IMG/VR virus record: IMGVR_UViG_3300005882_000018
Location: 1 to 26,477 of that record
Reading direction: 5' to 3' (one strand)
Source of the DNA: a virus
Length of the DNA: 26,477 nt
Shown one piece after another: positions 522-8,757 of the stretch. Positions within the stretch are counted from its first letter, which is position 1, and each line of letters opens with the position of its first letter. Both the position numbers and the translations under genes were made by a program. A model generated the notes under the pieces. The model saw only the letters and a list, made by a program, of their open reading frames with translations. It was not told where the DNA came from and did not search any database.

Positions 522-2084
522 TCATACTTCCATTTCAATTCCAGATTTAAAGCATATTACAAAGTGGTCTTCATAGACTGTAACGTTCTGGATTATCTTC
601 CTCACAAGCTTATCGTCATATTCTAAGGTGCGGTATTTATTGTTGCGGATAAATTCTACCAGCTCATTGGTTCGCTCATTCTCACCACTTAATGATGCAT
701 CTTCCACAAGAAGGGCCTGACGTTTTTCACGCAGGTTATCAATCTCATCAGCAATGGATTCATAGTCTTTCCCTTTATTAGCAAGACTGATTAGTTCCTT
801 CTGCTTTTCTTCAAGTAATGTATTAAGCTCTGAAATTTTATACTCTGTAGTGTCACCGATTACCGCATGGATGTTTTCTTCCAGTGTTTTTATCATGTTA
901 TCACCGCCAGCAAGTAATCTATTAATGGCAGTAATAACAGCATCATATAAATCGCCTTCCTTTACTGTTCGGCTCTTACATACTTCGGGGCCTTGCTCGA
1001 TTCTTGTTACGCATCGCCAAACAAATTCTTTTCTACCGTGAACATTCCAATATGTTCTTCTATAAATATCACCGCAATCACCACAGAAGGTTATGGTACT
1101 CAGAGCGTATTTGCTGCTGTAAATTCTTTTATTCTTGTCTGCGCCTGTGTAAATGTTATTCCGGCGATGAAGTTCTTCCTGTGCTTGTAAAAAGAGTTCT
1201 TTTGGAATGATAGCCTCATGGCTATTTTCAACATAATACTGTGGGAGATGACCTTCATTCTTGACTCTTTTCTTTGTAAGAAAATCCACTGTAATGGTCT
1301 TCTGCAAAAGGGCATCACCAATGTATTTCTCGTTATTAAGAATCTTCTTTATGGTTTCTGGTCTCCACTTTGGTTTTCCGGCAGCTGTTAAAATACCATC
1401 CTTCTCAAGATCCCTACCAATACCCGCCAGGCTCTTGCCCTCAAGATACTCTCTATAAATACGTTTAATAATTTCAGCCTCTTGAGGAACAATGATCAAG
1501 TTGCCCTCTTCATCTTTTGTATAGCCCATAAATCGATTGTGATTGACCTGCACCTTTCCTTGCTGGTATCGATATTGAAGTCCAAGTTTAACATTCTGAG
1601 AAAGACTTTGACTTTCTTGCTGTGCAAGAGATGCCATAATGGTAAGTAATACTTCACCCTTGGCATCCATTGTGTTGATATTCTCTTTTTCAAAATATAC
1701 AGCTATGTTCTTTTCCTTGAGCTGTCTAATATACTTTAAACAATCCAGGGTATTACGGGCAAATCGACTAATAGACTTTGTAATTACCATATCGATATTA
1801 CCTTCCATGCAAGCCTCAACCATACGATTAAATTCTTCTCGTTTTTTAGTATTGGTACCTGAAATGCCATCATCTGCAAATATACCTGCAAACTCCCATT
1901 CAACATTTTTCTTTATATATTCCGTATAATGGGCAACCTGCACCCCATAACTCAAATTCTGTTCTTCAGTTTCTGTAGAAACACGGCAATAGGCAGCGAC
2001 ACGTAATTTCTTTACTTTTTCTTTTGCAGCTGTACTTCCAACTCTTCTTCGTGCTGGTATTACAGTTATATTTTTTTCTTCCAT
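522..2084 (-). CDS. Large serine recombinase (third gene of the recombinase cassette)
   Basis: The product is 520 residues and acts in site-specific integration or excision of the element. The resolvase domain opens with [17 protein letters not shown], giving Ser36 as the likely nucleophile. The conserved DDGISGT and [11 protein letters not shown] motifs follow. A recombinase domain covers roughly residues 170-290, a zinc-ribbon region has CGDCG and two later Cys residues near 345-390, and a charged coiled coil covers about 410-470. The start at 2084 is chosen because GAGGTGTAAA sits directly before it; a GTG four codons earlier lies inside the binding site. One base separates it from the upstream gene, so translation is probably coupled. 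The family usually has 450-550 residues, so this one looks intact. Confidence 0.93.
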
Positions 2085-2085
2085 T

Positions 2086-2502
2086 TTACACCTCACTTTC
2101 TATGAGACTGTATAAATACTCGGCTCTTGTAACAGGATCATCTGGGAGTTTATCTTCTGTTTTTCTCATCTTAAATCGTTCTATAGGCGATGGCGCATTA
2201 AAAGCTGCAAGCTCTACAATACGTCCTAAATCCTTAGCACGTTTATTTCTAACCGCTTCTGCCAGATCAAATGTTTCTTTATCTACGATTGCTGGATACA
2301 CACCATTTCCAAGATATAGTCTATTTTTTAAAATACGCCCAATTACTGAATGTGTTTTTTCAATACCTGCCTGTTCGCCAGCCACTGTAAGGGAAAGTCC
2401 TGATATATATTTTTTAAAGAACTCCTTTACTTGACCTGCTGACTTCTCATCGACGGTAACAATGCCGTCTACAATGGTATATCCATATGGTACATAGGCC
2501 AT
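2086..2502 (-). CDS. Small recombinase-like protein lacking the catalytic domain
   Basis: The product is 138 residues. It begins [19 protein letters not shown] and continues with a helix-rich segment and a '[21 protein letters not shown]' type stretch. This resembles the DNA-binding recombinase domain of large serine recombinases (the PYGY start, acidic helix and Y(L/I)G motif). There is no resolvase domain, nucleophilic Ser or zinc ribbon. It lies between two full-length recombinase genes. Its ATG directly follows the stop of the upstream gene (TAAATG), and one base separates it from the downstream gene. It could be an accessory subunit or a DNA-binding directionality factor for its neighbours. 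Its position is conserved in my memory of similar clostridial elements, but the role is inference. Confidence 0.75.
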
Positions 2503-4068
2503 TTATCTCACCACCTTTTCTTTAAGGGTAAGTCCGCATTTCATTTTAAACGTTAGCTCATCCCTTGAATTTACAATGATATTTACTACAAACTTCTCAA
2601 AAGACTCCTCTGTATAATTGTCATCAAACCTATCTCCTAACACATAATCAAGAAGTGCCTTTACCTCTTCTACCTGAGATGACCCATTCGTAAATGACAT
2701 AACTAGATTGGTCTTTTCAGCTGTAAGATTTTTTAATTCTTTATCCAGAACATTTCGTTCCTTATTAAAAAGAGCTGGCTCAAGAAATCCTTTTGTCATA
2801 AGACCAATAAGCGTATTGCGTTCTTCGGTTAATTGCTCCATGCGTTTATCGATAGTATCAATTCTTTCTAGATCACTTTCTTCATCCATCTTGTTTATAG
2901 CCTTATAAAGGGGCTCCAATATTAGCTTTCTACTAAATGCAAGTTTATTCATCATCGTTGCAAACGTTGCTTTAATCTCTCCATCACGTAAAAACAACAT
3001 GGAACAACTATCCTTGTCTTCAATATGGCCTTTACAGCTCCAAGCAATATAGCTTCTTCCAACAGAATAGTTCGTTCTTCTCTTAAACTTACTACCACAC
3101 TTTCCACATAGGATTTTGCCACTTAACGCATATCTATTTTGATATGCCATTTTGTTAGCCTTGATGTTCATAGCCTCTGCTCTTTGCGTTATCAACTTTT
3201 GGGCCTTAGAAAATACTTCTCTACTAATAATCGGTTCGTGATGCCCCTTGCAGTAAAACTGATCTTTCTCTCCGTTGTTCGTGTGTCGATTAAAATTGCT
3301 GTCCGTATAGGTCTTTTGGAAAAGTACATCTCCTTTGTATTTTTCGTTACGAAGCATCTCAGTCACCGTACTAGAGTTCCAATGTTTTCCCCTTTTTGAA
3401 GGAATCTTGTCTCTATTTAGGCCTTTTGCAATTACATTGCCACCTCTTCCCGAAAGACACTCCGCAAAAATACGTTTTACTATTTCAGCTTCTTCTGAAA
3501 TGATTACCATCTCACCATTTACATTTGCATAACCATAGGGAGGAGTACCAATAACATAACTGCCATTTTGAAACTTTTTACTAATTGACCATGTTATATT
3601 CTGTGAAATAGATACTGATTCTTCAGCAGCAAAGCCAGATAGAATAGAAAGCATCAATTCACTTTCCATATTCCCGGTATTGATATTTTCTTTCTCAAAA
3701 TAAATATAAACGCCGATATCCATAAGGTGCCTTACTAGTTCTAAACAATCCGTGGTATTTCGTGCAAAGCGGCTAATGGATTTGGTGATAATAAAATTAA
3801 TCTTATTGCTCTCACAATCACGAATCATCCGTAGAAGTTCAGGTCGTTTTTCCTTTTTGGTGCCTGAAATACCTTCATCATAATAAAACCCAGAAAACAC
3901 CCATTCTGGATGGGATTTAATGTAGCTTTCATAATATTCCCGCTGAGCTTTAAGACTTACCAGTTGTTCGTCGCTATTCGTTGACACTCTGGCATATGCA
4001 GCAACTCGAAGTTTGATTTTTGGCGGATTAGATTTTGACATTTCGTCTATTTTCGTTATCTTCTTCAT
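2503..4068 (-). CDS. Large serine recombinase (first gene of the recombinase cassette)
   Basis: The product is 521 residues. LRVAAYARVSTNSDEQ gives Ser29 as the likely nucleophile, followed by DEGISGTKKEKRPEL and [11 protein letters not shown], the hallmarks of the resolvase catalytic core. The recombinase domain includes GTPPYGYA and YKGDVLFQKTY. A zinc ribbon follows with CGKCG near residue 340 and two later Cys residues, then a coiled coil rich in Glu and Lys at about 405-465. The start has GAGGTGAGATA immediately upstream. The protein clearly differs from the recombinase at 522-2084, so this is not a recent duplication. It may form a complex with, or act in the opposite direction from, that recombinase. 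Confidence 0.93.
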   Translation of the reverse strand: MKKITKIDEMSKSNPPKIKLRVAAYARVSTNSDEQLVSLKAQREYYESYIKSHPEWVFSGFYYDEGISGTKKEKRPELLRMIRDCESNKINFIITKSISRFARNTTDCLELVRHLMDIGVYIYFEKENINTGNMESELMLSILSGFAAEESVSISQNITWSISKKFQNGSYVIGTPPYGYANVNGEMVIISEEAEIVKRIFAECLSGRGGNVIAKGLNRDKIPSKRGKHWNSSTVTEMLRNEKYKGDVLFQKTYTDSNFNRHTNNGEKDQFYCKGHHEPIISREVFSKAQKLITQRAEAMNIKANKMAYQNRYALSGKILCGKCGSKFKRRTNYSVGRSYIAWSCKGHIEDKDSCSMLFLRDGEIKATFATMMNKLAFSRKLILEPLYKAINKMDEESDLERIDTIDKRMEQLTEERNTLIGLMTKGFLEPALFNKERNVLDKELKNLTAEKTNLVMSFTNGSSQVEEVKALLDYVLGDRFDDNYTEESFEKFVVNIIVNSRDELTFKMKCGLTLKEKVVR

Positions 4069-4129: not shown

Positions 4130-4345
4130 TTAAGACATAATTTCAACTAACTTCGGTGAGAATTTCTGACGGTTTAATGCTGATATTTTCTGTAGTTCAT
4201 CTTGTGTAATCTTGCCTTCTTTATAGAGCATACCAACAATACTCTCAGCTATATAAAAATCATATTCTCTCTGCAGCTGCTCTTCTGTCATCGGTTCTAG
4301 CTCTCCCTTGATAGGCAAACCATCTTTCACTTCAATAATGTTCAT
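4130..4345 (-). CDS. Small protein upstream of the recombinases, SHOCT-like C-terminus
   Basis: The product is 71 residues, acidic and mostly helical. The C-terminal half contains LYKEGKITQDELQKISAL followed by NRQKFSPKL. This pattern of a turn, 'G(K/L)IT..E...I' and a closing 'F.P.L' resembles SHOCT-type short domains. Such genes commonly sit just ahead of serine recombinases in clostridial elements. The start codon is preceded by GGAGGTG and seven T residues, and this binding site is buried in a strong hairpin (4353-4384). A gap of 61 bases separates its stop from the first recombinase. A regulatory or directionality role is plausible but unproven. Confidence 0.7.
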   Translation of the reverse strand: MNIIEVKDGLPIKGELEPMTEEQLQREYDFYIAESIVGMLYKEGKITQDELQKISALNRQKFSPKLVEIMS

Positions 4346-4384
4346 AAAAAAACACCTCCTACCTAGTAGCCGTGGTAAGAGGTG
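4346..4384 (-). promoter_or_regulatory. Hairpin that sequesters the ribosome binding site, with a U-tract
   Basis: In the minus-strand RNA, CACCTCTTACC (4384-4374) pairs with GGTAGGAGGTG (4363-4353) over 11 bp with one U-G wobble and a 10-base loop. The 3' arm contains the GGAGG binding site (4359-4355) of the 71-residue gene. Seven T residues (4352-4346) and then that gene's ATG follow. The structure therefore fits both an intrinsic terminator for the polymerase transcript and a translational lock on the recombinase unit. Confidence 0.7.
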
Positions 4385-4404
4385 AAATCTGACGTTTTTA
4401 TAAA
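4353..4404 (-). ncRNA. Conserved leader element, copy A (before the recombinase unit)
   Basis: This non-coding stretch begins within ten bases of the polymerase stop. Its 44-base core (4361-4404) aligns without gaps to 8661-8704. In minus-strand orientation the shared parts are TTTATA, then AAACGTCAGATTTCA, then GGCTACTAGGT. An interior of about 11-12 bases differs between copies. The differing interior takes part in the hairpin described separately, so structure is kept while sequence changes. Structured-RNA motifs named after DUF2800 and DUF2815 genes exist, and I cannot tell whether this is one of them. A protein-binding or promoter-proximal site is the alternative. Confidence 0.6.
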
Positions 4405-4410
4405 ATTACT

Positions 4411-6351
4411 CTAATCTTTTTGGTAAAAATTACAAGTGTAGCCGTCGGCTCTAAGGATCAGTCCTTTTGCCCAGTCGGGAACTCTACTCATTTGCTCGCA
4501 TACAACATCAAGAGATAGACTTGAATCAGCCTCTATGATAATTTCATCATGCACATGCGCAACAATTGAACAATCCCTAAGTGTTTGCATGGCATAAAGT
4601 AAAAGATCACGCGAAGCAGCTTGCACTATATTCTCCACAAATTTGGGCCCATAACTTTCTAAGCGTTCCCATTTCTTTGTTCCTCCAACACCTTCATAAG
4701 TAACTGACTCACCACCAAATCGATTCTCCCCAATACGTGGTTTGACATAGGCAAGTCTTCTACCAGAAGGTAATACTATAAATAGCATTCCGCTTTGACA
4801 AAAGAACTTAATTCCATGAGTTTCTTTTGTCTGCCTTTCCTTGATGCATCTCTTAACGGTATGATCAACATCCCACCAAAACCTTACAATGTTTGGATTG
4901 GTTTTTCTCCATGCATCAACAAGTGGCTTAAGTTCTTCTTCATCAATTCCCATCTCTAATGCTCCCATTGCTTTTAGTGCACCAACTGACCCGCCATAAC
5001 CAAGTGCCAGTTCTGCAATCTTGCCTTTCTGCCTTAAATGTCCGTTGACACCATGCTTTTGGACAGGAACTTTAAACATCTGGCTTGCCGATGCGCAATA
5101 GATATCTCCACCACTTGCAAAGACTTTTGATCTCCACTGTTCTCCTGCAAACCAAGCAATCACACGCGCCTCTATTGCAGAAAAGTCAGCTACTATAAAC
5201 CGTGTCCCTTCTTTTGGTACAAAGGCTGTGCGGATAAGCTGTGACAAAGTATCTGGGATGTCTTCATAAAGCATATCAATGGCATCATAGTTACCACTTC
5301 TTACAAGACCACGAGCCTGGCTAAGGTCTGACATATGATTCTGTGGTAAATTCTGCAACTGCACAAGTCTCCCAGCAAAACGCCCCGTCCTGTTTGCACC
5401 GTAAAACTGAAACATACCTCTGACACGATTATCAACACACACCGCATTTTCCATTGTCGTGTATTTCTTTACCGATGATTTGGCAAGCTGTTGTCTAAGT
5501 TTAAGTACTTTTACCAAATGATCTGGAGCATCCTCTATAAGTTTTGCTACTGCTTTTTTACCAATGGTATCTGTTTCTAGCCCATTTTCTAAAAGCCACT
5601 GTTTCATCTGCTGTACAGAATTTGGATTTTCAAGTTTTGTTAGTTCCTGCATAACGTTCAAAAGCTTGTCATGAGAAATCCTATCCACGGCGATGGCTTG
5701 TTTTACAAATACCTTATCCACCTTAATACCACGATCATTTATCTCTTGGTCCAGGTGATATTCATCCCATACACTATCTGGCACAGGGAATTTAAAAAGC
5801 CTTTGTTGAATTTGCATCTCCGTTTCGACATCTCGCTTGTTATATAGTTTAAAATGGGCCCATTTTTCTATATCATGCTCTGGTAGATTACGAGTACGTC
5901 CGCCATTTCTCTTTGTAGGATTACACGGAACGCAAAAATATCGAATTAAGTCTTTGCCCTCCGTAAGTTTTTGCTTTTCAAGACCGAGAACCGCACCTAC
6001 ACCTACCAACGATAAAGGAAGACCCATATAGGCAGACCACACCATTGAACATTTCCATGATACAGGATTTAAATATTTACCTATAGGTAGCCCTAAAAAT
6101 CGTGATAGACAAATACGCTCAAACTGGCTATTGAATGCCCATTTAGTAACCCCATCATCCGTTAAGGCATTAAGAATATCAGAAGGAATTGTTTCTCCAT
6201 TAGCAAGATCTATGACATTTACCTCACCGCCATCGATTGAATAGCCAAATAGCAATATTTCAAAATCACTTGCCTCCGCATAACGATAAACACCGCTTTT
6301 GGCAAGATTCACTGATGAATATGTTTCAATATCTATTTCTAAATTCTGCAT
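4411..6351 (-). CDS. Family A DNA polymerase with N-terminal DnaQ-like exonuclease domain
   Basis: The product is 646 residues and replicates phage DNA. The N-terminal 3'-5' exonuclease domain shows DIET (Asp7, Glu9) and the exo III motif Tyr170-x3-Asp174. The exo II position reads NSQFE, with Glu78 where Asp is usual. The polymerase domain has the template-contact stretch NRTGRFAGRLVQLQNLP (320-336), motif A with DFSAIEAR (389-396), motif B with Arg440, Lys444 and Tyr452-Gly453, and motif C HDE at 601-603. All polymerase carboxylates are present. The binding site GAGAGG lies 6 bases before the ATG. A terminator hairpin separates it from the upstream DUF2815 gene, so its level may be set lower. 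It works with the neighbouring nuclease and ssDNA-binding protein. Confidence 0.95.
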   Translation of the reverse strand: MQNLEIDIETYSSVNLAKSGVYRYAEASDFEILLFGYSIDGGEVNVIDLANGETIPSDILNALTDDGVTKWAFNSQFERICLSRFLGLPIGKYLNPVSWKCSMVWSAYMGLPLSLVGVGAVLGLEKQKLTEGKDLIRYFCVPCNPTKRNGGRTRNLPEHDIEKWAHFKLYNKRDVETEMQIQQRLFKFPVPDSVWDEYHLDQEINDRGIKVDKVFVKQAIAVDRISHDKLLNVMQELTKLENPNSVQQMKQWLLENGLETDTIGKKAVAKLIEDAPDHLVKVLKLRQQLAKSSVKKYTTMENAVCVDNRVRGMFQFYGANRTGRFAGRLVQLQNLPQNHMSDLSQARGLVRSGNYDAIDMLYEDIPDTLSQLIRTAFVPKEGTRFIVADFSAIEARVIAWFAGEQWRSKVFASGGDIYCASASQMFKVPVQKHGVNGHLRQKGKIAELALGYGGSVGALKAMGALEMGIDEEELKPLVDAWRKTNPNIVRFWWDVDHTVKRCIKERQTKETHGIKFFCQSGMLFIVLPSGRRLAYVKPRIGENRFGGESVTYEGVGGTKKWERLESYGPKFVENIVQAASRDLLLYAMQTLRDCSIVAHVHDEIIIEADSSLSLDVVCEQMSRVPDWAKGLILRADGYTCNFYQKD

Positions 6352-6368
6352 TACGCACCTCTCTTCCT

Positions 6369-6406
6369 AAAAAAATAAGGTGGCAAAGGGTATCCCTCCA
6401 CCACCT
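6369..6406 (-). terminator. Intercistronic terminator or attenuator before the polymerase
   Basis: On the minus strand, AGGTGG (6406-6401) pairs with CCACCT (6383-6378). An inner AGGG/CCCT stem sits between them, and TTATTTTTTT follows. This is a typical intrinsic terminator inside the 72-base gap between the DUF2815 and polymerase genes. Since no promoter is obvious after it, partial read-through would lower polymerase expression relative to the ssDNA-binding protein. Confidence 0.8.
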
Positions 6407-6423
6407 GTAAGTAAATATATGGA

Positions 6424-6975
6424 TTAAGAAAGGAAGTCATCCTCATCAAGAGTTGTGAAATCATCTGCTGCAGAAGTTTTTCCTCCAAGTGGTTCTCCAT
6501 CTTTAATCTTCTGGATATTTCCAAGTCCACAGGCAACTCCCTTATTACCATTAGAATTGAAGGCATAGAAATTTAGAGAAACTCTCGCGTAACAACCACT
6601 GTATACTTCAGAACGGTCCATAATAGGTTTTACCGCTCTGTCTACAATTTGTGGTGCTGTCATGCTGTTTGCATTAATAAAATAATGACCTTTGTAAGCC
6701 TCATCATCGCGCTCCACATCTCCATCACGCAGCGGTAGTTTAATAGCAGCTTTGTTTGGTTTTTTCCCACCAAACTTAGCAATACCTTCTTCAATTGCAG
6801 CATCAACCGCTGCATTTATTGCATCAATTGTTTCCTTATCATTCTTTGGAATAAGAACGGATACTCCGTATTTTTCAGCACCTCCATTAATAGATACTGG
6901 CTCCCATCCGTGGAAGTAAGAAAGTCTCGTGTTTACACCTGTGATAACTTTTGTCTTATTAGAATTATTAACCAT
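6424..6975 (-). CDS. DUF2815 / Enc34-type single-stranded DNA-binding protein
   Basis: The product is 183 residues. It matches the DUF2815 family, now named after the ssDNA-binding protein of Enterobacter phage Enc34. Diagnostic parts include an N-terminal 'V.TG..TRLSYFH.W.P' stretch, AEKYGVSVLIPK, a central LPLRDGD, and the conserved stretch GCYARVSLNFYAF. The C-terminus is acidic (DDFTTLDEDDFLS), as in many SSB proteins where it recruits replication partners. Its ATG directly follows the stop of the DUF2800 gene (TAAATG), so they are translated together. It should coat single strands made by the nuclease and during synthesis by the polymerase. It is followed by a terminator-like hairpin. 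Confidence 0.88.
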   Translation of the reverse strand: MVNNSNKTKVITGVNTRLSYFHGWEPVSINGGAEKYGVSVLIPKNDKETIDAINAAVDAAIEEGIAKFGGKKPNKAAIKLPLRDGDVERDDEAYKGHYFINANSMTAPQIVDRAVKPIMDRSEVYSGCYARVSLNFYAFNSNGNKGVACGLGNIQKIKDGEPLGGKTSAADDFTTLDEDDFLS

Positions 6976-8115
6976 TTATATTTTCTCCTTATATTCGTTA
7001 AATTCAGTTTTCGCATCTGTTATATTTATAGGCGAGCGTTTGTCCGAGTTTAGGACAAGAGTCGGCTTGCCTGGTGGCTTATAAATGAGATCACCAAGAA
7101 TTTTATCAAACTTGGTTTTACCCATTAGTTTTTGCATCTGTGTCATTGGAATAAGTGACTTTTTATAAATATCCTTATATCCATTTGCAATTGCCTTTTC
7201 TACTACGGCATTTTCATCCTTGTACTTACGAACGGAACGACCCTCTACAACTTTAAAACCATGCCACTCTTTTCCGTGGTTAACTGCTGCATCTAAAGCA
7301 TAGGCTGTGATTTTATTTGCCCACTTGGTAAGGTCGGGAAGAATAGCAAGAATTTCTTCTATTTCTGCATCCGTAAGTAATGGTGGTAATTTAAACTCTG
7401 ATTGTGCTAGTTTTAGCTTTTCTTCGGCTCTGGCCCTGCAACGAACTGCAGCCCTGCAGAAAGTACACCATTCACCGGGTGCATATTCACCATTTCCGTT
7501 ATAAGCCAGAATTGCTTTTGGCTTGAGTTCATCTTCTGCCCATACTTTCAACTCTTCTACAGGTATTGTCCAAGTGCTGACATTTTCACGTCTTGGCTGG
7601 AAGATGGTCATGGAAACTTCCTTGATATCATAAAGACTATCGTAAATTTCTAGAGCCCCTAAGGCATACAATTTCATCTGTGGATTTTCTACTGCATCCA
7701 CAAGCACACCTAACCCATATTTGAAATCAATGATATGCAATCTGTCATCAGCAATAATAATGCAATCTCCTGTGCCAAATCCATCCGGTACATAGCATGA
7801 GAAGTCAAGATGTTGTTCAATAAGAACAATCGGATCCTTACAAGTCTGCTTTGCTAGTTCATACTGTTCCATAACAAAATTAACATAAGCATCTGTGTGT
7901 TCTTCCATCTCATCAGAATCGTACTCAGAGATTGGACGCTTGCTCCTAATACCTAGTGCTTTTTTAAGTTTGTACTCGCACCATTCATGAGCTGCTGTTC
8001 CTTCTTTTGCCGCCTTGGAAGTGGTGTTATCAAATTCCAGTTCAAGTCTTGCAGATGGTGGACAATTCAACCACCTGTGTGAACCTGATGCGGAAAGTAC
8101 TGCATGCTTATCCAT
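6976..8115 (-). CDS. DUF2800 PD-(D/E)XK nuclease with Fe-S cysteine set
   Basis: The product is 379 residues. It matches DUF2800, a phage RecB/Cas4-like family. The nuclease core shows Asp117, then IIDFKYG with Asp130 and Lys132, and a QxxxY motif (Gln146, Tyr150). Four cysteines are arranged as in AddB/Cas4 iron-sulfur nucleases: one near the N-terminus (Cys18 in LNCPPSAR) and Cys217, Cys220 and Cys226 after the core. A C-terminal region of about 150 residues follows. The ATG at 8115 has GGAGG 9 bases upstream and overlaps the previous gene by 8 bases. It is likely an exonuclease working with the ssDNA-binding protein in replication or recombination. The iron-sulfur site is inferred from spacing only. 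Confidence 0.88.
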   Translation of the reverse strand: MDKHAVLSASGSHRWLNCPPSARLELEFDNTTSKAAKEGTAAHEWCEYKLKKALGIRSKRPISEYDSDEMEEHTDAYVNFVMEQYELAKQTCKDPIVLIEQHLDFSCYVPDGFGTGDCIIIADDRLHIIDFKYGLGVLVDAVENPQMKLYALGALEIYDSLYDIKEVSMTIFQPRRENVSTWTIPVEELKVWAEDELKPKAILAYNGNGEYAPGEWCTFCRAAVRCRARAEEKLKLAQSEFKLPPLLTDAEIEEILAILPDLTKWANKITAYALDAAVNHGKEWHGFKVVEGRSVRKYKDENAVVEKAIANGYKDIYKKSLIPMTQMQKLMGKTKFDKILGDLIYKPPGKPTLVLNSDKRSPINITDAKTEFNEYKEKI

Positions 8116-8425
8116 TGCCAAGTACCTCCGCATCTTCAAGTACCTTTTTGTAATTTTTCGGATCAACTTCACTTAGACGATTTGCGCCATATTTTTGAAT
8201 AATAGCCCTTACTTCAGCTGTAAATCCAAGCTGGCTCTTTTCGGCAAGCACGCCACGAACTTTTTCTAATGCTATTTGAGGTTCTTTTTCTGTCTTTCTT
8301 TTTGTAGTTGCTTTTTGTGTCTGTTCGGTTTCTTTAGAACTTGCTTCATCGCAGAATGCCTGTATGCTGTCGGCAAGGGAGCGCATATCCTGGACCACAT
8401 CAAGCAATAACTTGATTTTGCTCAT
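8108..8425 (-). CDS. Small phage protein with charged linker and conserved C-terminal helices
   Basis: The product is 105 residues. An N-terminal helix (LLLDVVQDMRSLADSIQAF) is followed by a Lys/Thr/Glu-rich linker. The C-terminal region, VRGVLAEKSQLGFTAEV then IIQKYGANRLSEVDPKNY, is widely found upstream of DUF2800 genes and is sometimes labelled as rRNA biogenesis protein rrp5, a name I consider unreliable. The C-terminal shape suggests a small protein- or DNA-binding fold. The start at 8425 has AAAGGAGG 8 bases upstream. It overlaps both neighbours, so it is translationally coupled within the replication unit. Function is unknown. Confidence 0.75.
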   Translation of the reverse strand: MSKIKLLLDVVQDMRSLADSIQAFCDEASSKETEQTQKATTKRKTEKEPQIALEKVRGVLAEKSQLGFTAEVRAIIQKYGANRLSEVDPKNYKKVLEDAEVLGNG

Positions 8426-8618
8426 CTTCTTTTCCTCCTTTCGTAGTCTCACAGATAGCGAGTTCCTCTACACTGTCACCTGGAATCACAATGGTTACCC
8501 TCTGTTTATCTCCAAGGAGGAAACGCATAAGTTTTTCCCGAATAGCGACATTACGACAAGTAACGATTCCGCCTGTCTGTGGCTTTTTTGAAACACTGAT
8601 TCTTAAATTGTGCTTCAT
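8400..8618 (-). CDS. Small conserved protein, first gene of the replication unit
   Basis: The product is 72 residues, beginning MKHNLRISVSKKPQTGG. It has alternating strands, a basic middle (REKLMRFLLGDKQRVTIVI) and an acidic end. I do not recognise a family. The ATG at 8618 is preceded by AGAGG at 8 bases; a GTG three codons upstream is less likely. It overlaps the next gene by 26 bases. It is the first gene after conserved leader B, so it would be the first product controlled by that element. A small DNA-binding or regulatory protein is possible. Confidence 0.68.
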   Translation of the reverse strand: MKHNLRISVSKKPQTGGIVTCRNVAIREKLMRFLLGDKQRVTIVIPGDSVEELAICETTKGGKEDEQNQVIA

Positions 8619-8654
8619 AACTTTCACCTCTTTCCGAGAGCTCTTAATTTACTG

Positions 8655-8704
8655 CCCTCTACCTAGTAGCCACCAGAGGATATGAAATCTGACGTTTCTA
8701 TAAA
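8655..8704 (-). ncRNA. Conserved leader element, copy B (before the replication unit)
   Basis: The element lies directly downstream of the lysis terminator and about 40 bases before the first replication gene. Its core (8661-8704) matches 4361-4404 over 44 bases with no gaps. The ends are nearly identical and the middle 11-12 bases differ. In the minus-strand RNA, TCCTCT (8680-8675) pairs with AGAGGG (8660-8655) under a loop holding GGCTACTAGG. This is the same loop as copy A but with a different stem sequence. Here the hairpin does not cover the binding site and no U-tract follows. Confidence 0.58.
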
Positions 8705-8710
8705 AAAGAT

Positions 8711-8752
8711 TAAAAAAATAATGCCCTCAGAAGTTCAGACTTCCAAGGGCAT
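8711..8752 (-). terminator. Rho-independent terminator of the late/lysis operon
   Basis: On the minus strand, ATGCCCT (8752-8746) pairs with AGGGCAT (8727-8721), with an inner GAAGT/ACTTC stem. TATTTTTTTAATC follows. It begins 5 bases after the endolysin stop codon and separates the structural and lysis genes from the replication unit. Confidence 0.9.
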
Positions 8753-8757
8753 CGTTT

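Follow-up and report, generated by a model that had tools for sequence, protein, structure and literature searches.

Matching noncoding leaders before the recombinase and replication units of a Firmicutes phage as candidate promoters for a phage sigma-like protein

Two matching noncoding leaders lie in a viral DNA of 26,477 nucleotides (IMG/VR record IMGVR_UViG_3300005882_000018, analysed as a whole and here called the window), one before a recombinase unit and the other before a replication unit. They are probably promoters specific to a family of phages and read by a phage sigma-like protein, with the spacer between their two boxes masking the following Shine-Dalgarno (SD) sequence at some sites. 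Computation revealed a near-fixed geometry of the boxes, their matching within each phage, an association between protein and box, the position of terminators, complementarity between spacer and SD region, and the predicted folds. Transcription would start at the leader, driven by the sigma-like protein, and RNA reading through from upstream would be poorly translated. A wider proposal, to which we would give even chances, is that such proteins form a family whose members each read a -35/-10 code of their own, present at as many as three master promoters per phage, the spacer acting as an anti-SD arm and insulation being lost where a terminator lies upstream.

The leader pair and its gene units

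Window positions 4360-4404 align without gaps with 8660-8704, at an offset of exactly 4300. One end of this 45-nt block, TACCTAGTAGCC, is identical in both copies; at the other end an identical GAAATCTGACGTTT is followed by a T/C change and then by ATAAAA, also common to both, and the approximately 12 bases in the middle are mostly unlike. The alignment confirms what a preliminary description had reported as an ungapped 44-base match (4361-4404 with 8661-8704), near-identical at its ends and dissimilar in the middle. The accompanying claims, that each copy leads a unit of its own and that neither codes, also hold in the window, where leader B lies directly upstream of the recombinase unit and leader A directly upstream of the replication unit. 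It has to be corrected, with respect to that description, that the minus strand carries the two leaders as well as the two units. Read in this direction, each copy consists of AAA-CGTCAGATTT (box1), a spacer of 13 nt and GGCTACTAGG (box2), and the window record contains no further box1-box2 pattern beyond these 2 sites (the reversed control pattern gave 0 matches). The features, in the order in which they are read, are these:

8720-8753, minus strand: intrinsic terminator of the lysin transcript, a 15-bp stem followed by ATTTTTTTAA (1 found, 0.1 expected)
8685-8694, minus strand: leader A box1 CGTCAGATTT, putative -35 element (pattern scan, fixed spacing, within-phage match)
8672-8684, minus strand: leader A spacer CATATCCTCTGGT, with only weak downstream complementarity
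8662-8671, minus strand: leader A box2 GGCTACTAGG, putative -10 element (pattern scan, fixed spacing, within-phage match)
8636-8659, minus strand: leader A hairpin P2, directly 3' of box2, GAGGGC (8654-8659) with GCTCTC (8636-8641)
8624-8633, minus strand: SD sequence AAAGAGGTGA of the 75-aa ORF, identified from the sequence and kept in relatives
4411-8618, minus strand: replication unit 3' of leader A (75-aa ORF, 114-aa ORF, DUF2800, Enc34-type SSB (DUF2815), PolA)
4385-4394, minus strand: leader B box1 CGTCAGATTT, putative -35 element (fixed spacing to box2, within-phage match)
4374-4384, minus strand: strand 1, the leader B spacer CACCTCTTACC, 5' arm of hairpin P1, pairing fully with 4353-4363
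4362-4371, minus strand: leader B box2 GGCTACTAGG, putative -10 element and hairpin loop (fixed spacing, within-phage match)
4353-4363, minus strand: P1 3' arm GGTAGGAGGTG, holding GGAGGTG, the SD sequence of the SHOCT ORF; T7 and ATG come next
4130-4345, minus strand: small SHOCT_2 ORF of 71 aa that opens the recombinase unit (Pfam PF20612, E 1.4e-12)
522-4068, minus strand: three serine recombinase genes 3' of leader B (Pfam Resolvase/Recombinase/Zn_ribbon)

The likely start of the 75-aa ORF is the ATG at 8616-8618. The middle recombinase gene (2086-2502) has the Recombinase domain only, without the catalytic resolvase domain, and is flanked by two full serine recombinases, a trio also found in relatives. 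In place of the lysin that immediately precedes leader A in the window, a near-identical contig (L002:8600-9499) carries another gene, SIR2-like by eye, which is a possible insertion of a defence gene; in Erysipelothrix phage phi1605 (L062:5191-7110), tetM lies between the lysin and leader A. Streptococcus phage Javan630 carries aminoglycoside-modifying genes at record positions 44205-46580, and its PolA, intact in relatives, is annotated as two consecutive ORFs (L064:36391-38330). Read-through of the PolA stop codon into the leader, which is in frame in the window and in the related contig L003, was discarded, this extension being out of frame in other relatives.

Box geometry and the sigma-like protein across phages

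Related leaders were gathered from Firmicutes phages by their neighbouring genes, and not by motif, giving 168 unique sequences: 83 before the replication unit (A), 50 before the recombinases (B) and 35 before an antirepressor operon (C), the latter being a third site present in complete phages. Phages with CGTCAGAT boxes, the kind to which the window belongs, are called type I, and those with CCTCAAC boxes type II. The same box pair occurs in Petroclostridium, Clostridium and Bacillus prophages, in Javan630, in phi1605 and in Ruminococcus phage NatCom_28274. Scans of whole type I records yielded 44 zero-mismatch sites in 16 records (three sites in 12/16, two in 4/16), against 5 matches of the reversed control with two mismatches allowed. 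Three is the maximum per phage in types I and II alike, and the sites stand before three units (antirepressor, DUF2800-SSB-PolA and SHOCT-recombinase); in type II, the third site is again the one before SHOCT and the recombinases. Among the GGCTA-type leaders in a set of 151 sequences that differ over the region, no insertion or deletion alters the distance between box1 and box2, and the constant 33-nt geometry holds at the three operons despite unrelated spacers; in a few divergent leaders (L029 B, L035, L041 and L134), box2 can be placed in registers one base apart. Two boxes at a fixed -35/-10 spacing are thus found before several operons.

The DUF2800-SSB-PolA cassette itself occupies different places, following the sigma-like gene in type II (L064:33046-42206) and lying between the lysin and the recombinases in type I (L012:6958-11797). 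Because leaders flank it in both arrangements, its relocation by homology exchange at these leaders is suggested.

Where transcription begins is indicated by the terminators. The T-tract of the lysin terminator ends within about 20 nt of leader A box1, and type II recombinase leaders also have a terminator directly upstream, so that the promoter is most likely located within the leader. No sigma-70 consensus promoter was found on the coding strand at leader A or leader B.

The proposed reader of the boxes is the product of a gene roughly 130-190 codons long that includes a sigma-region-4 domain and ends at or inside site C in type I phages and site A in type II phages. The type I gene closes with the codons N-R-Q-I-stop, written CGTCAGATTTGA, and this sequence is box1 itself at the antirepressor site; in type II, the gene overlaps the site of the PolA unit in another frame (SSTF). 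The gene is absent from the 26.5-kb window, which is a fragment, and the phage-encoded factor with region 4 is found in its sister phages. Pfam Sigma70_r4_2 matches the protein, and an AlphaFold model shows a confident C-terminal helix-turn-helix like region 4 of sigmaE, SigR and SigD. Region 2 was recognised neither by Pfam and NCBIfam nor by fold search, and the confidence of the model is low in the middle. Since region 4 is the only part recognised and full-length Foldseek matches are poor, the protein could be a sigma-4-like activator working with a host sigma factor. A profile scan with a distant sigma alignment gave no conserved stretch, and single sigma-like proteins were used as queries instead; for the CGTCCTTTT phages, only the query's own record was matched, the other records being fragments.

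The recognition helix goes with the sequence of box1: ENNITQKL with CGTCAGAT, AISHRL with CCTCAAC, TVYKRL with TGTCCAAT and EAAIRKRL with GGTTCGA. This association is partly between elements adjacent on the DNA, and the distal sites bear the same boxes. Two sigma-like proteins (L246:1580-2104 and L257:1204-1719) have the N-terminus of one type and the C-terminal helix of another, and their adjacent box1 goes with the C-terminus; they look like natural domain swaps.

Within a phage, the boxes of leaders A and B match each other and the spacers do not. In 31 phages, box1 differs between A and B at 1.45 of 10 positions, against 4.76 in shuffled pairings (0/2000 shuffles), and box2 at 1.19 against 2.39, figures that are inflated by the relatedness of the phages; spacers differ at 7.42 positions against 7.0 shuffled (p 0.94). 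Coding sequence runs into box1 at C sites and type II A sites, and this overlap would by itself be enough to keep box1 conserved in those places. In the L260 phage, each of the three sites combines a box1 of the CGTCCTTTTT type with a box2 changed to GGCCTATA. An exception is the 79-kb record G032 (C1:6127, 38403, 42901), with TGTCCAAT beside its only sigma-like gene and GTCCTTTT at the other two sites, which may be a mosaic record.

It is proposed that box1 is a -35 element bound by the phage protein through its sigma region 4, and box2 the corresponding -10 element. Because phages have up to three such sites, production of the sigma-like protein would turn on together the antirepressor/primase, DUF2800-SSB-PolA and SHOCT-serine recombinase units.

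Hairpins, SD masking and alternative explanations

In the 4353-4404 copy, P1 is an unbroken stem of 11 bp, with one G-U pair, that hides the SD sequence. At the B sites of relatives its paired fraction is 0.79, against 0.42-0.55 when the strands are slid, and its duplex energy is -17.5 kcal/mol, against -8.9 kcal/mol when shuffled; 6/500 reshuffles of the P1 strand reached the pairing observed at B, and the compensatory evidence is modest because the B leaders are so alike. P1 is present at C sites as well. At A sites it is unsupported, with a paired fraction of 0.58 vs 0.45-0.55 slid and a duplex of -9.8 vs -9.5 kcal/mol shuffled; the 8661-8704 copy could form only CCTCT/AGAGG (5 bp), to which the relatives of A give no support. 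On these slide and shuffle controls at A sites, P1 was rejected as a structure common to all copies. The stem under the loop that had been proposed for both leaders is therefore retained before the recombinases and the antirepressor, and dropped before the replication unit.

Taking into account that MAFFT alignments of the downstream part are not structure-aware, the second hairpin, P2, was tested by comparing matched with swapped strands, with energies of -9.27 kcal/mol for matched, -7.85 for swapped and -4.19 for shuffled ones. Compensatory pairs (GAGGGC/GCTCTC, GAAGG/CCTTC, GGAGG/CCTCC and GGGAG/CTCCC) are found at A, C and type II B sites, and at type I B sites P2 is unsupported. Covariation in homologous leaders, the check suggested at the outset, is consequently divided between modest evidence for P1 at B, none for it at A, and compensatory changes in P2; a conserved covarying structure common to all copies was not found, P1 belonging to B and C sites and P2 to A, C and type II B sites.

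The predicted probability that the SD sequence is unpaired goes from 0.06 in the full RNA to 0.47 in the truncated RNA at B, from 0.29 to 0.56 at C and from 0.22 to 0.78 at A, and 45 other genes of Javan630, taken as a control, shift by only 0.05-0.15. In fold predictions, then, the SD sequence is hidden in the long RNA and exposed without the 5' arm. At leader A, shuffled spacers hide it nearly as well (0.26 vs 0.22), the effect there not being specific to spacer order. Excess complementarity of strand 1 before SHOCT is -10.0 kcal/mol where PolA lies upstream with no terminator between, and +0.3 kcal/mol where a terminator lies upstream; it reaches -7.9 and -4.8 kcal/mol at antirepressor units, which follow another gene, and -1.9 and -1.4 kcal/mol in two contexts of PolA units. 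These values support the idea that two of the three units are insulated from read-through. Insulation is not universal, because no terminator separates the type II PolA unit from the sigma gene before it, and its excess is nonetheless only -1.4 kcal/mol.

Where a site comes after another gene without a terminator, as before the recombinases in the window and before the antirepressor in other phages, the spacer is complementary to the following SD region. Read-through RNA from the upstream gene would then fold and hide the SD sequence, and RNA starting at the site, without the 5' arm, would be translated.

An unlikely alternative to such promoters is a cis-acting RNA, either a riboswitch or a protein-bound operator made of box1, hairpin and loop, controlling translation of both units in transcripts started upstream. 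The SD sequence within one arm of the 11-bp stem at B sites, the compensatory changes in P2 and the conserved sequence of box1 and loop would all be expected of such an element. However, the boxes are conserved at A sites and P1 is not, the 33-nt geometry is constant with unrelated spacers, boxes match within phages while spacers do not, and the terminator about 20 nt from leader A box1 leaves no space for an upstream promoter. It is mainly because upstream terminators place the start of transcription in the leader that a promoter is preferred over an RNA switch.

Searches of Rfam also speak against an RNA element, with no match in the window or at the leaders of relatives, and the kinship to the DUF2800 and DUF2815 motifs that had been raised as a possibility finds no backing in the covariance models. 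The Rfam DUF2800 RNA (RF02960), a multi-helix element of 158 nt, was detected in one relative only (L046:6735-6896), which indicates that the search was able to find this model. In L046 this strong RF02960 match lies upstream of the DUF2800 gene, and the region after PolA showed no leader of the present type; the RNA is possibly another solution for the control of the DUF2800 unit.

What survives from the preliminary description is a shared noncoding regulatory site coupling the replication and recombinase units. The shared RNA switch finds no support as the principle common to both, given that P1 is not conserved at the replication site and that copies in one phage share boxes and not a stem. 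The competing possibility mentioned in that text, conservation due only to a shared promoter, largely corresponds to the present results; at some sites, moreover, the promoter spacer also serves as the 5' arm of a hairpin that would block translation.

It could also be argued that the leaders are operators for a non-sigma phage DNA-binding regulator, a repressor or an activator, over ordinary host-type promoters, which we consider rather improbable. A region-4 domain is a plain helix-turn-helix, and a host sigma factor could contribute because the box2 variants TATAAC, TATAGC and CTATAG resemble a -10 element; nevertheless, the coding strand lacks a sigma-70 consensus promoter at either site, the distance between box1 and box2 is that between -35 and -10 elements, and both boxes co-vary.

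It is very improbable that the copies serve the neighbouring serine recombinases as sites of recombination or attachment, or act as homology blocks for cassette exchange. The copies have one orientation and flank a PolA cassette of about 4.3 kb that is relocated between type I and type II phages, but the boxes are not inverted repeats, the A and B spacers, which would include the crossover core, differ, essential genes would be lost by deletion between three direct copies, and the match between box and sigma-like helix would be left unexplained; homology exchange can come about as a side effect of the sites being promoters. That box1 is conserved merely through protein coding, as NRQI-stop at type I C sites, or through recent duplication is hardly credible: coding was rejected as an explanation since window-type A and B sites are noncoding and type II uses a different frame (SSTF), and duplication is disfavoured because A and B spacers are as unlike as spacers between phages.

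Significance and comparison with known systems

The phages concerned are widespread and include relatives of Ca. Heliusvirales in gut Firmicutes and carriers of resistance genes in Streptococcus and Erysipelothrix. Nine core genes, including DUF2800, DUF2815 and PolA, have been described for Ca. Heliusviridae (PMC9226167), and a text search of that article found no treatment of their regulation. No published description of this leader element or early-operon switch was found in the open-access literature, which is not proof of novelty. The promoter reading points to a likely master factor, along with the code it binds and the targets it acts on, and yields a prediction of the genes that would rise jointly on induction. 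If the wider proposal is true, some 45 bp would provide factor-dependent transcription and at the same time refuse translation of read-through RNA. Natural pairs of sigma region 4 and -35 box with differing specificities would be useful as orthogonal promoters, and the presence or absence of a terminator before the SHOCT unit offers a natural comparison of when insulation against read-through is kept.

Among known elements, RF02960 resembles these leaders in lying upstream of DUF2800 genes in Firmicutes phages, but its position is another one, as seen in L046, and it matches none of the leaders studied. Xpf of PBSX, a sigma-like regulator of a Firmicutes phage, is a small protein proposed as a switch for phage operons; compared by description, the likeness would be in its role as a small phage sigma-like protein. 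We know of no match in Xpf systems to the box sequences, the three-site layout or the nesting with a hairpin. In IS10/Tn10, the transposase start is masked by an inverted repeat when the RNA reads in from outside, and stays accessible in transcripts that the element's promoter produces, although this is a different element, with an ordinary promoter and no phage factor.

The closest proven case is gene e of phage T4, whose late promoter lies in the DNA of the hairpin's 5' arm (PMC3014915). Genes soc, 49 and I-TevI share with e a late promoter inside an SD-masking hairpin (PMC3014915). As proposed here, the long RNA started upstream hides the SD sequence, and RNA from a phage promoter in the DNA of the 5' arm leaves it free. 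The phages and the sigma factor are, however, unrelated, and the T4 case is proven experimentally while the leaders described here are computed. Unlike in T4, the 5' arm in these leaders coincides with the spacer between the putative -35 and -10 elements, and one set of boxes recurs at the master operons for replication, antirepression and recombination.
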